In this document: piece after piece, positions 38,943 through 46,477 of the stretch | Layout: the number at the start of each line of letters is the position of its first letter | Numbering within the stretch: position 1 is the first letter of the stretch | Source: Candidatus Scalindua sp. | GTDB taxonomy: Bacteria > Planctomycetota > Brocadiia > Brocadiales > Scalinduaceae | Length of the DNA stretch: 64,000 nt | NCBI GenBank assembly: GCA_018670825.1 | Contig: JABHIW010000132.1 | Location: forward strand, 1-64,000 | Reading direction: 5' to 3' | Made by a program: the position numbers and the translations under genes | The notes under the pieces: model-generated | Told to the model about the DNA's origin: nothing | The model's input: the letters and a program-made list of their open reading frames with translations, nothing else | Database searches by the model: none

Positions 38943-39884
38943 GTGAATAATTTAAAGGTTCTTGTTACCGGTGGCGCTGGATATATAGGGTCAATCCTTG
39001 TCCCGGAGTTAATAAAGAATGGTTACAGTGTGTCTGTTATTGATAATTTCATGTATAATCAGACACCACTGTTGGATTGTTGTAACCATAAAGATTTTAC
39101 CGTAATCCGTGGAGATGCCAGGGATAAATCCTTGATCTTACACCAACTCAAATCAGCAGACATTATTATACCCCTTGCTTGCCTTGTCGGGGCATCGTTG
39201 TGTGAGCAAAGACCACTTGAGGCGAGGTCTATTAATAATGATGCGATTGAGATGCTGCTTGACTTGCGGAGCCGTGATCAGAAAATATTTTACCCGACAA
39301 CAAACAGCGGATATGGAATTGGAGAAAAGGGGATATATTGTACGGAAGAATCAGCCCTTAAGCCCGTTTCACTATATGGTAGGCTAAAGGTAGATATCGA
39401 GAAAAAATTACTGGATGCTGGTAATAATATCACTCTGAGACTTGCAACCCTCTTTGGTATCAGCCCTCGCATGCGTCTGGACCTGCTGGTAAATGACTTT
39501 ACATACAGGGCTGTCAATGACAAGTTTGTCATACTTTTCGAGGCCCACTTTATGCGTAATTACATTCACGTCAGGGATATTGCCAGGGCTTTTATACACT
39601 TGATAGAGAATTTTGATTCAATGAAAAACGAGCCTTACAACGTTGGGTTAAGCGATGCCAATCTCAGTAAGTGGCAGTTGTGCGAAGAGATCAAGAAACA
39701 GATTCCTGGCTTTTATTTTGTAGAAGCCGAAGTGGGTGAAGATCCTGATAAAAGGGATTATATTGTCAGTAACGAGAAAATAGAGTCAACGGGTTTTAAG
39801 CCGGTTTATTCACTGCAGAACGGAATCTCCGAGTTAATTAAGGGATACAGGATAATTAAGAGAAGCCAGTATGCCAATGTATAA
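38943..39884 (+). CDS. NAD-dependent sugar epimerase/dehydratase (extended SDR)
   Basis: 313 residues, start GTG at 38943. The N-terminal [21 protein letters not shown] is the NAD-binding Rossmann motif; PTTNSGYG and YGRLK (Tyr-x3-Lys) are the catalytic parts. It belongs to the nucleotide-sugar SDR group but is not closely GalE, Gmd or RmlB. It is followed after 26 nt by the ColD-like gene, so it probably works on the same deoxysugar, perhaps as a C4 reductase or an epimerase. Confidence 0.85.
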
Positions 39885-39910
39885 ATCATTTTGATAAGAT
39901 TGGGATAGAG

Positions 39911-41092
39911 ATGAAACTGAATTGGCAGTTAATGAAAAACAATATAACGCGTGAAGATCTGGATGTGCTGATAGATTATCTAAAGCAGGATGAACCTTTT
40001 CTCACACAGTCCACGCAGGTTCGAGAATTTGAAAGAGAATGGGCTGAATGGGTGGGTGTGAAGTATTGTGTATATGTCAACTCGGGTGCATCGGCAAATC
40101 TTTTGACCATAACTGCCTTAAAATATCTTTACGGTGAGGGAGAGATTGTTCTACCGCCGCTGACCTGGGTTTCTGATATCGCTTCTGTGATCCAGAATGA
40201 CCTGAAACCTGTGTTTGTGGATATAAACCCAAAAACTCTCTGTATGGATGATGCGCGGATAATATCCGCTCTTTCTGACAGGACAAGGGCTGTATTTATA
40301 ACACATGTGCAGGGTTTTAATGGTTTGACTGATCGTTTGATCAACGTTTTAGAAGATAGGAATATTCCTCTTATTGAGGATGTATGTGAGTCTCATGGGG
40401 CAACCTTCAAGGGTCGTAAATTAGGTTCCTTTGGTTTAATATCCAATTTTTCCTTCTATTACGCTCACCATATGAGCACTATAGAAGGTGGGATGGTGTG
40501 TACAGATGATAAGAAGGTATATGAGATGATCCGTATGTTGAGGTCTCATGGCATGGTGCGAGAGGGAGAAAATGATGCGACAAAACAAGAGTTTATTGAC
40601 AGGTATCCTGATCTGTCTCCCGATTTTATCTTTGCTTACCCTGCATACAACGTTCGTAACACGGAGATTGGTGCAGTTCTTGGCAGAAATCAGTTGAAAC
40701 GTCTGGATGCAAATAACGAAATAAGAAAAAATAATTTTAAGCTTTTTCTAACAAACCTTGACTCGGCAAAATACAGGATCGACTTTGCATTGGAAGGAAG
40801 TTGCAATTACGCCTTCAATCTTGTAATTAAGACGCCTGATCCGGACTTCCGGGACAAAGTTGAGCAATTATTAACCAAAGCAGGAGTAGAATTCCGGCGT
40901 GGCAGTTCCGGCGGTGGTAATCAACTGAGACAGCCGTATTTAAGGGGCATTATGCCTGAAAAAGAGTATGAAAAATATCCTGAAGTAGAGCATATACATT
41001 TCTATGGATATTACATCGGTAATTACCCGGATCTGGAAGATGAAAAGATACTTTTGCTCTGTGATATGCTAAATAGAATAGAAGTAAACTGA
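39911..41092 (+). CDS. DegT-family PLP 3-dehydratase homologue with His for Lys (ColD/E1-like)
   Basis: 393 residues of the DegT/DnrJ/EryC1 family. Most members are sugar aminotransferases with an internal-aldimine lysine. Here the aligned segment reads NFSFYYAHHMSTIEGGMV, with His186-His187 where Ser-x4-Lys would be. That replacement is the hallmark of the PLP-dependent dehydratases ColD (GDP-4-keto-6-deoxymannose 3-dehydratase, His188) and E1/AscC, which remove the C3 hydroxyl of 4-keto-6-deoxy sugars. The PLP phosphate and ring contacts (NSGASANLL, EDVCESHGA) are kept. With gmd in the same locus, a GDP-4-keto-3,6-dideoxyhexose product is likely. Confidence 0.88.
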   Translation: MKLNWQLMKNNITREDLDVLIDYLKQDEPFLTQSTQVREFEREWAEWVGVKYCVYVNSGASANLLTITALKYLYGEGEIVLPPLTWVSDIASVIQNDLKPVFVDINPKTLCMDDARIISALSDRTRAVFITHVQGFNGLTDRLINVLEDRNIPLIEDVCESHGATFKGRKLGSFGLISNFSFYYAHHMSTIEGGMVCTDDKKVYEMIRMLRSHGMVREGENDATKQEFIDRYPDLSPDFIFAYPAYNVRNTEIGAVLGRNQLKRLDANNEIRKNNFKLFLTNLDSAKYRIDFALEGSCNYAFNLVIKTPDPDFRDKVEQLLTKAGVEFRRGSSGGGNQLRQPYLRGIMPEKEYEKYPEVEHIHFYGYYIGNYPDLEDEKILLLCDMLNRIEVN

Positions 41093-44910: not shown

Positions 44911-44911
44911 A

Positions 44912-46477
44912 ATGACAGGTAGGAAAGTAGATGTAGTATTAATAAACCCGGGAGATAGGAAACAGATATACCAGGATTTGGCAACTAATATTTCGGCAAT
45001 TGAACCCCCCTTTTGGGTTGCTGTTTTGGCTGCATTTCTCAGGAATAAAGGCTTTGGTGTTGAAATAATAGATGCCAATGCAGGAAATATCTCTCCCGAA
45101 GAAGTATCAAACATAGTTAATGAAATTAAGCCATATTTATCTGCAGTTATAGTTTATGGTTCTCAGCCCTCCGCCTCTACTCAAAATATGACCATTGCAG
45201 GTAAAATCTGCAATGCGTTGAAAAATAATACATCTTCAAAAGTTGTCGCAGGAGGTTTGCATCCATCAGCGCTTCCGAAGAGAACACTAGAGGAAGAGAA
45301 TATTGACTTTGTAATAGAAGGTGAAGGTTTTTATACATTAAAAAGCCTGATTGAAGCATTGAGGATGCCTACAGGTGATTTTTCCAGTATTCCAGGTCTC
45401 TGGTACTTTGATAATGGAACTATTAGGAATAACCCAAAGGCTTCTTTAATAAAAAATTTAGATGAAGTATTGCCTGTTGCGGCCTGGGACATGCTGCCTA
45501 TGGAGAAATACATAGCTCATAATTGGCACTGTTTTGATAATATAGATAATCGAATGCCCTATGGAGCAATATATACAAGCTTGGGGTGTCCTTATTCATG
45601 TGTTTTCTGCTGCATTAATGTGCCTTTTGGAAAGCCAGGAATACGATACAGGGACCCTGAATTGGTTGTTGAAGAGATAGGGTTGTTGGTAAGAAACTAT
45701 GGAATTAAAAATATAAAAATTATTGATGAACTCTTTGTCTTGCAAGAAGAACACTACATGTCTATAGTTGATTTACTAATAGAAAGTGGATATGACTTAA
45801 ATATCTGGGTCTATGCAAGAGTTGATACGGTTAAACATGTACATCTTCAAAAGATGAAAAAAGCTGGCATTAACTGGTTGGCATTAGGGATTGAATCTGC
45901 AAATCCTGATGTAAGAGATGGGGCATCTAAGAAAATGAGAGTAAATGATATTAAAAAAATTGTTAGAATTATTCAAGAAGCAGGAATAAGGGTGATAGGA
46001 AATTATATCTTCGGTCTTCCAGAGGATACTAATGAAACAATGAAGGAAACCCTTGATATGGCGATAGACCTAAACTGTGAATTTGCAAATTTCTACTCTG
46101 CGATGGCATATCCCGGTTCTAAACTATATGATATTGCTGTCAAAGAAGGTTGGGAATTGCCAAGAGAGTGGCATGGATATTCACAACATTCCTATGAAAC
46201 GTTACCTTTGTCAACAAATTATCTAAGTGCAAGAGAAGTCCTCAAATTCAGAGACGATGCATTTCACAAATATTTTGAAAACCAAAAATACCTAAGCATG
46301 ATAGAGAATAAGTTTGGTAATAAGGTAAAAGAATATGTACAAGAAATGACAAAAACGAGATTAAAGAGAAAAATACTTGATGAAGAAAATTCAAGTAAAC
46401 TAAAAGATAATAAAATGGTCATATACGGTTCATTTTCCGGGCTTGATAACAATCAAAATCGAATACCTCAAACATGA
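44912..46477 (+). CDS. Cobalamin-binding-type radical SAM enzyme (second)
   Basis: 521 residues. An N-terminal B12-binding-like domain (AIEPPFWVAVLAAFLRNKGFGVEIIDAN... VAGGLHPSALP... VIEGEGFYTLKSL) precedes the radical SAM domain with SLGCPYSCVFCC (Cys-x3-Cys-x2-Cys at about residue 224) and WLALGIESANPDV and FGLPEDTNETM. It begins just after the transketolase C-half stop, so it is in the same operon. It could add a methyl group or rearrange the carbon skeleton of the product of that pathway; this is inference. Confidence 0.88.
   Translation: MTGRKVDVVLINPGDRKQIYQDLATNISAIEPPFWVAVLAAFLRNKGFGVEIIDANAGNISPEEVSNIVNEIKPYLSAVIVYGSQPSASTQNMTIAGKICNALKNNTSSKVVAGGLHPSALPKRTLEEENIDFVIEGEGFYTLKSLIEALRMPTGDFSSIPGLWYFDNGTIRNNPKASLIKNLDEVLPVAAWDMLPMEKYIAHNWHCFDNIDNRMPYGAIYTSLGCPYSCVFCCINVPFGKPGIRYRDPELVVEEIGLLVRNYGIKNIKIIDELFVLQEEHYMSIVDLLIESGYDLNIWVYARVDTVKHVHLQKMKKAGINWLALGIESANPDVRDGASKKMRVNDIKKIVRIIQEAGIRVIGNYIFGLPEDTNETMKETLDMAIDLNCEFANFYSAMAYPGSKLYDIAVKEGWELPREWHGYSQHSYETLPLSTNYLSAREVLKFRDDAFHKYFENQKYLSMIENKFGNKVKEYVQEMTKTRLKRKILDEENSSKLKDNKMVIYGSFSGLDNNQNRIPQT

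Follow-up and report, generated by a model that had tools for sequence, protein, structure and literature searches.

The window analysed here, a 64,000-nucleotide stretch of Candidatus Scalindua sp. (Planctomycetota; assembly GCA_018670825.1, contig JABHIW010000132.1, positions 1 to 64,000), carries at 38943-46477 a run of six plus-strand genes that we consider, with a probability of roughly 0.6, to cover the nucleotide-sugar stage in the making of a surface-polysaccharide sugar that derives from a heptose, lacks the C3 hydroxyl and is branched at C4. In this scheme C4 of a 3-deoxy-4-keto-heptose would most likely receive a two-carbon unit through a split transketolase encoded within the run. 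In order, the genes encode a short-chain dehydrogenase/reductase (SDR) assigned to the Cj1427 type (38943-39884), a ColD-type sugar 3-dehydratase homologue of the DegT family (39911-41092), a probable sugar O-methyltransferase (41271-42155; Pfam Methyltransf_24, with a weak TylF match), an Fcl-like SDR (residues ~1-311) fused to a transketolase N-half (residues ~327-596; 42158-43948; Pfam/NCBIfam), a transketolase C-half with pyrimidine-binding and C-terminal domains (43945-44910; Pfam), and a B12-binding radical S-adenosylmethionine (SAM) enzyme (44912-46477; NCBIfam). The C-half gene begins inside the fused gene with a 4-nt overlap, and one base separates its end from the radical-SAM start. 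Both halves match 6yak/6yaj, listed in the PDB as the Carboxydothermus split transketolase (N-half E 4.8e-52, C-half E 4.5e-37). An earlier sequence-only reading had named these six genes with their domains, the extent of the run and the overlap, and open reading frame (ORF), Pfam and NCBIfam analyses found each of them in place. An SDR of this kind stands beside a two-part thiamine diphosphate (ThDP) enzyme in 32 loci, window included, spread over about ten phyla.

Family membership and gene context make it well supported that the base sugar is a heptose. The best PDB match of the window SDR is 6vo6/6vo8 (phmmer, E 4.9e-124), and its AlphaFold model, with a mean predicted local distance difference test score of 80.7, returned 6vo6 as the top Foldseek match at 60% identity and a template modelling score of 0.92. 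The PDB titles of these entries name Campylobacter jejuni Cj1427, and 6vo8 was crystallised with GDP-D-glycero-D-mannoheptose, the sugar nucleotide that Cj1427 oxidises at C4. With full-length sequence and fold both matching, the window SDR is, as judged from sequence and model, a homologue of the Cj1427-type GDP-heptose 4-dehydrogenase. In vitro, Cj1427 together with the HS:5 C3-dehydratase, which uses pyridoxal phosphate (PLP) and glutamate, yields GDP-D-glycero-4-keto-3-deoxy-heptose (PMC10680097). Since the homologous SDR in the window adjoins a ColD-type gene, the likely intermediate is a 3-deoxy-4-keto-heptose and not the product of Gmd.

Heptose supply genes accompany the run and its relatives to varying degrees. 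Downstream in the window, on the plus strand, lie a GHMP kinase resembling HddA, of the heptose 7-phosphate 1-kinase family (48844-49839; 136 bits on NF049969, below the cut-off of 600), and an HddC-like sugar-1-phosphate nucleotidyltransferase, a guanylyltransferase by similarity (52170-52913; 162.4 bits on NF049965, below the cut-off of 300). Another contig of the genome holds a match of 184.9 bits (cut-off 209) to GmhA, which opens the heptose route. Among the related loci, L161 has an HddC relative over the cut-off (308.2 bits) and a GmhA of 195 bits, under its cut-off, beside the cassette; L162 has a GmhB above cut-off beside the cassette; L031 and L033 combine a SIS-domain (GmhA-like) gene with an HddC that carries a fused phosphatase domain; and L178, on a Solidesulfovibrio magneticus plasmid, has a SIS-domain gene together with an L-2-hydroxyglutarate oxidase. 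Cassette genomes contained a GmhA match in 13 of 13 cases at E 0.001, a loose search that was also positive in 9 of 14 control genomes; 11 of the 13 matched at 1e-32 or better and one scored over the cut-off. Homologues of the oxidase lie near the SDR in four loci (L178:18134-19336, L027:6325-7593, L050:5231-6433 and L162:1827-2999), and no match to it was found in the window. In those four loci it would apparently recycle the by-product of 2-oxoglutarate-dependent turnover by the SDR, which hints independently at chemistry of the Cj1427 type.

The ColD-like protein carries AHHMSTIEGG at the lysine motif, with His in place of the PLP-binding Lys as the sequence-only reading had noted, and its best PDB match is ColD itself (2gms, E 6.5e-51). 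By eye, its translation shows no cysteine cluster like the [2Fe-2S] motif of the E1 (RfbH) dehydratases, in keeping with the ColD type.

Evidence for an unusual reaction comes from the active site of the transketolase pair. The earlier reading would have been refuted had this pair been the only transketolase of the genome; a separate canonical enzyme of 675 aa is encoded on contig 126, and with the active site of the pair altered as well, we reject a housekeeping role. Compared with the canonical enzyme, the window transketolase keeps the ThDP motif, the catalytic Glu and the equivalents of His66 and His473. At the equivalents of the substrate-contacting residues His26, His100, His461, Asp469 and Arg520 (E. 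coli numbering), it has Arg, Ile, Gly, Ser and Ala, whereas the canonical enzyme retains all five residues. Changes confined to substrate contacts, with the cofactor site intact, argue for a different donor or acceptor. The change of His461 to Gly is widespread among the other split transketolases in our set and thus not specific. The Arg/Ile pair, in contrast, is shared by all 26 rows of this type and by none of the 16 others; with L126, L157 and L158 taken out as copies of loci already counted, the 26 rows come to 23 distinct loci. Membership of this type was defined by at least 55% identity, and the residue signature formed no part of the definition. In the tree the type makes up one side of a branch with a support of 98/100 and a long stem, a monophyly that the similarity definition partly builds in. 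A second transketolase subtype, in L105-L107, occurs in cassettes that are otherwise complete; it keeps both His residues that the window's type replaces and has Gln at the His66 equivalent (KGQ).

Loci were collected by a scan of genome contigs with the fused protein (best 80 of 139 relatives), from regions of related genomes and by an SDR-only search of plasmids. The ThDP enzyme of the 32 loci is of the window's type in 20, of the second type in three (L105-L107), of other transketolase types in three (L116, L176, L181), and an E1 alpha/beta pair in six (L113, L148, L177, L178, L180, L182), so that two different kinds of ThDP enzyme apparently occupy the same slot. A His-type ColD homologue accompanies the pair in 25 of the 32, so that the refuting outcome named by the sequence-only reading, a lack of such conservation elsewhere, did not come about; an HddA-like kinase of at least 47% identity is present in 26 and a relative of the radical-SAM enzyme of at least 46% identity in 19, both counts including the window. 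The labels of the carriers include Planctomycetota, several Patescibacteria-type candidate phyla, Omnitrophota, Elusimicrobiota, Dependentiae, Myxococcota, Campylobacterota, Pseudomonadota and a desulfovibrio, with Azospirillum lipoferum 4B and A. argentinense Az39 among the cultured carriers, and these phyla are intermixed in the transketolase tree, which fits transfer between lineages. Within the window's own phylum, a profile of its transketolase type gave nine matches at E 1e-70 across 199 genomes, two of them strong (500 bits; the window's genome and G026), so that the cassette appears scattered there and not general.

Given that the query of the fused-protein scan held both the Fcl and the transketolase N-half domains, loci found in that way are biased towards transketolase, and they were excluded from the association test. 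For the latter we counted loci found through the SDR only, using profile searches of 199, 249 and 379 genomes and the plasmid search (7 records), with ~10 kb fetched on each side where the contig allowed. Dropped from the count were the cassette-holding centre genomes (G000, G238, G227), two short contigs (L142, L167) and five genomes with SDR matches of 313-327 bits (G093, G144, G173, G177, G201), which are ~40% identical where aligned (G173 was not fetched); G093 has a transketolase pair ~10 kb away (L150). L149 was kept despite an SDR of 49% identity. A two-part ThDP enzyme was present in 14 of the resulting 29 loci, and in the other 15 BLAST with transketolase and E1 queries found nothing in the fetched stretch, a search that did not extend to YerE-like enzymes. 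The His-type ColD homologue was found in 11 of the 14 loci with a ThDP enzyme as opposed to 2 of the 15 without (Fisher p 0.0007, relatedness not corrected), and with plasmids removed the same count stood at 7 of 8 against 2 of 14 (p 0.0015). Twelve of the 15 negatives are plain heptose clusters of Campylobacterota, all with HddA-, HddC-, RmlC- and Fcl-like genes; the other three are L147, L149 and the Sinorhizobium plasmid L179, in which both DegT homologues have Lys. No relative of the radical-SAM enzyme was found in any of the 15.

In the pathway we propose, the Cj1427-type SDR would oxidise C4, with 2-oxoglutarate restoring NAD+, and the ColD-type enzyme would strip the C3 hydroxyl to give GDP-3-deoxy-4-keto-heptose. 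The split transketolase with its ThDP would then place a two-carbon unit onto the C4 ketone, leaving a tertiary alcohol; the donated unit could be a hydroxyacetyl group from a ketose or hydroxypyruvate, or an acetyl group from pyruvate. The Fcl-like reductase, the methyltransferase and the B12 radical-SAM enzyme would complete the sugar. The SDR and ColD-type reactions have been demonstrated with corresponding enzymes from C. jejuni; the C2 transfer we infer from context, from the active-site changes and from replacement by E1-type enzymes, and the reactions assigned to the finishing enzymes are guesswork.

Among known systems, the GDP-heptose pathways of C. jejuni share the SDR family, a PLP/glutamate 3-dehydratase, an Fcl-like reductase and the heptose supply genes, and differ in that the 12 plain Campylobacterota clusters show neither a ThDP-enzyme match nor a B12 radical-SAM relative. 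The yersiniose A route likewise sets a ThDP enzyme with a maker of a 4-keto sugar and a 3-dehydratase; there 3-deoxygenation is followed by YerE, which attaches C2 to a 3,6-dideoxy-4-keto sugar nucleotide destined for a surface polysaccharide (PMC12247030). YerE, however, is a decarboxylase-family enzyme of the acetolactate-synthase type acting on CDP-3,6-dideoxy-4-keto-glucose (PMC12247030, PMC10338323), whereas the window has a split transketolase with probably a heptose substrate; Pfam and NCBIfam return transketolase halves and not an acetolactate-synthase-type single chain. The general idea that a split transketolase branches a keto sugar is not new, having been proposed for miharamycin and amipurimycin, where split-gene transketolases would hydroxyacetylate the keto sugar (PMC12247030). 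This 2025 review counts 13 putative split transketolases, all from streptomycetes and none characterised in vitro. Those products are nucleoside antibiotics, and the likeness to the window's pair is by description. E1-type pairs have also been proposed to form a C2 branch on sugar C4, namely AviB1/AviB2 and Pau11/Pau12 in avilamycin and paulomycin (PMC4425429) and a similar pair in everninomicin (PMC10338323). These are two-part ThDP enzymes acting on a 4-keto sugar, as the window's pair would be, and in six of our loci an E1 pair replaces the transketolase; unlike the window's pair, they belong to a different ThDP superfamily and serve antibiotic sugars. Bradyrhizose was set aside as a product, its published candidate cluster being centred on a dTDP-glucose dehydratase homologue and not on heptose genes (PMC4743980). 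Within the open-access literature we found no paper linking a transketolase to GDP-heptose or to polysaccharide branching, and no report of bacterial surface sugars that derive from a heptose and are branched at C4 or perhaps carbocyclic as well. A transketolase group with a fixed active-site signature, found in polysaccharide-type loci of about ten phyla, would extend a proposal so far confined to streptomycetes, and the likely substrate can be prepared with known enzymes, which makes the question directly testable.

We considered whether the pair might instead serve only to provide the heptose pathway with sedoheptulose 7-phosphate, leaving the nucleotide sugar untouched. Sedoheptulose 7-phosphate starts the GDP-heptose route (PMC10680097), and the frequency of HddA-like genes near the cassette is as this explanation would have it. 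The 12 plain Campylobacterota clusters, however, have the same kind of SDR and gave no transketolase or E1 match in the fetched stretches, which indicates that a GDP-heptose pathway needs no transketolase of its own nearby. E1-type enzymes are moreover not expected to supply sedoheptulose 7-phosphate, so what both enzyme types have in common is more probably the transfer of C2 to a ketone. The replaced active-site His residues and the canonical transketolase elsewhere in the genome also speak against a supplier, and we regard this explanation as rather unlikely.

An equally unfavoured possibility, if marginally weaker, is that the pair acts on a keto sugar other than a heptose, such as GDP-4-keto-6-deoxymannose, which the sequence-only reading had proposed as the substrate, or another hexose. 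Gmd and Fcl genes do lie in the same polysaccharide locus (21535-23521), and the HddA and HddC homologues of the window score under their family cut-offs. Against this, the SDR is of the heptose type by its match to Cj1427; the Gmd/Fcl pair lies 15 kb upstream; a Gmd relative reaches no more than 34% identity in the other 31 loci, most of which show none; and L161, L162 and L178 carry the GmhA or SIS-domain, GmhB or HddC genes described above. We therefore set the Gmd product aside as the substrate source. What survives of the branching transketolase first envisaged is a dedicated, non-housekeeping enzyme placed with a ColD-type homologue on a 4-keto-sugar route; the hexose acceptor is not supported.

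Split transketolases also occur in catabolic pathways. That the product of the pair is a small ketose phosphate, branched or otherwise modified, which the HddA/HddC-like enzymes later activate as a nucleotide sugar (compare the apulose and sulfo-sugar transketolases), is very unlikely: the HddA-like proteins do form a type apart, at 47-59% identity to that of the window as opposed to 27-30% for the 12 Campylobacterota plain clusters, but the partners found most constantly, the SDR and the 3-dehydratase, use a nucleotide sugar in C. jejuni (PMC10680097), and L028, L032, L035 and L056 have no HddA- or HddC-like genes in reach.

Several observations weigh against the branched-heptose pathway that we favour. 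A ColD relative of 57% identity occurs in L078 with Fcl, GmhA and HddC-GmhB and without such an SDR or transketolase, which shows that branching is not the only setting of the ColD-like gene; L165 and L175 combine the His-type ColD and the SDR without a ThDP enzyme, and L147 and L179 carry an HddA-like gene (49% and 45% identity) with no ThDP match. Among the 32 loci, seven have no His-type ColD homologue in reach (L027, L028, L035, L056, L116, L176, L181), 13 show no B12 radical-SAM relative of the window's kind and six show no HddA-like gene. The window's own HddA and HddC homologues fall far short of their cut-offs, and the heptose assignment here draws on the SDR and on related loci. Activity, donor, acceptor and product are all predicted from sequence, and even in miharamycin, the closest published case, the branching role is unproven (PMC12247030). 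Three of the loci lacking ColD, L116, L176 and L181, pair the SDR with more divergent transketolases; L116 and L176 share an aldo/keto reductase (62% identical), and these three could possibly branch a 4-keto heptose without 3-deoxygenation.

The radical-SAM enzyme bears on how the branched heptose might be finished. By NCBIfam it comes nearest to HpnJ (169.5 bits, far under the cut-off of 577.6) and BchE (159.8 bits, far under the cut-off of 481.35), a weak affinity, as other B12 radical-SAM families score not far below, methyltransferases among them at 127.7 bits. HpnJ and BchE form carbon rings, and by that token the radical-SAM enzyme could close a ring of the type found in caryose. Caryose, from the lipopolysaccharide of Pseudomonas caryophylli, is a carbocyclic 4,8-cyclo-3,9-dideoxy-nonose (PMC9026286), and its skeleton corresponds to a 3-deoxy-heptose with C2 on C4 and one C7-C8 bond. 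Among the papers listed by a literature search, none dealt with the genes for its biosynthesis. We think it improbable that the cassette serves in general to make carbocyclic nonoses like caryose, with C2 placed on C4 by the altered split transketolase or an E1-type enzyme and the radical-SAM enzyme joining C7 to C8 in a five-membered carbon ring; were it so, the 13 loci without a radical-SAM relative would stop at the open branched sugar, and 3-deoxy, 4,8-cyclo sugars would occur in surface polysaccharides of many phyla. On this reading, the Arg at the His26 position of the transketolase might hold a 2-oxo-acid donor by its carboxylate. The window holds a second B12 radical-SAM gene (34594-35985), 65% identical to a gene ~7 kb upstream of the SDR of the L026 cassette, and, judged by eye, a third radical-SAM gene of similar build at 50286. 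On an Azospirillum argentinense plasmid, L181:3276-5021 is annotated as a cobalamin-dependent protein and lies beside the transketolase pair.

The fusion of the Fcl-like SDR to the transketolase N-half, which the sequence-only reading had listed, is present in the window and was seen in this genome only. In 12 other loci with Fcl directly before the N-half (L025-L029, L041, L044, L056, L108, L160-L162) the two are separate ORFs, and every fused ORF found was the window's own locus or a copy of it, so we rejected the fusion as a conserved feature. It is either private to this genome or a base-level error of the draft assembly; the frame runs through the Fcl end, and an internal in-frame ATG lies at 43109. 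L043 was readable only up to its Fcl gene, followed by a 3,597-aa open frame that is probably masked N. The Fcl-like domain itself scores 387 bits against the cut-off of 500 for GDP-L-fucose synthase in NCBIfam, and we treat it, by sequence, as a relative of that enzyme and no closer than Fcl-like.

Other genes of interest lie in the same polysaccharide locus and in one E1-type cassette. By eye, the window at 27436-33776 contains a NeuB-like synthase, two genes resembling CMP-sugar cytidylyltransferases, a class III aminotransferase, a branched-chain-aminotransferase-like gene and a glyoxalase-like gene, perhaps for a second unusual sugar acid, and a short ORF at 48248-48673, inside the polysaccharide locus, resembles four-helix-bundle (S23/IVS-type) proteins. 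The E1-type cassette of L113 encodes a 585-aa Fcl-like protein (9217-10971), the C-terminal half of which has no Pfam match, and a galactarate-dehydratase second domain (11078-11689).

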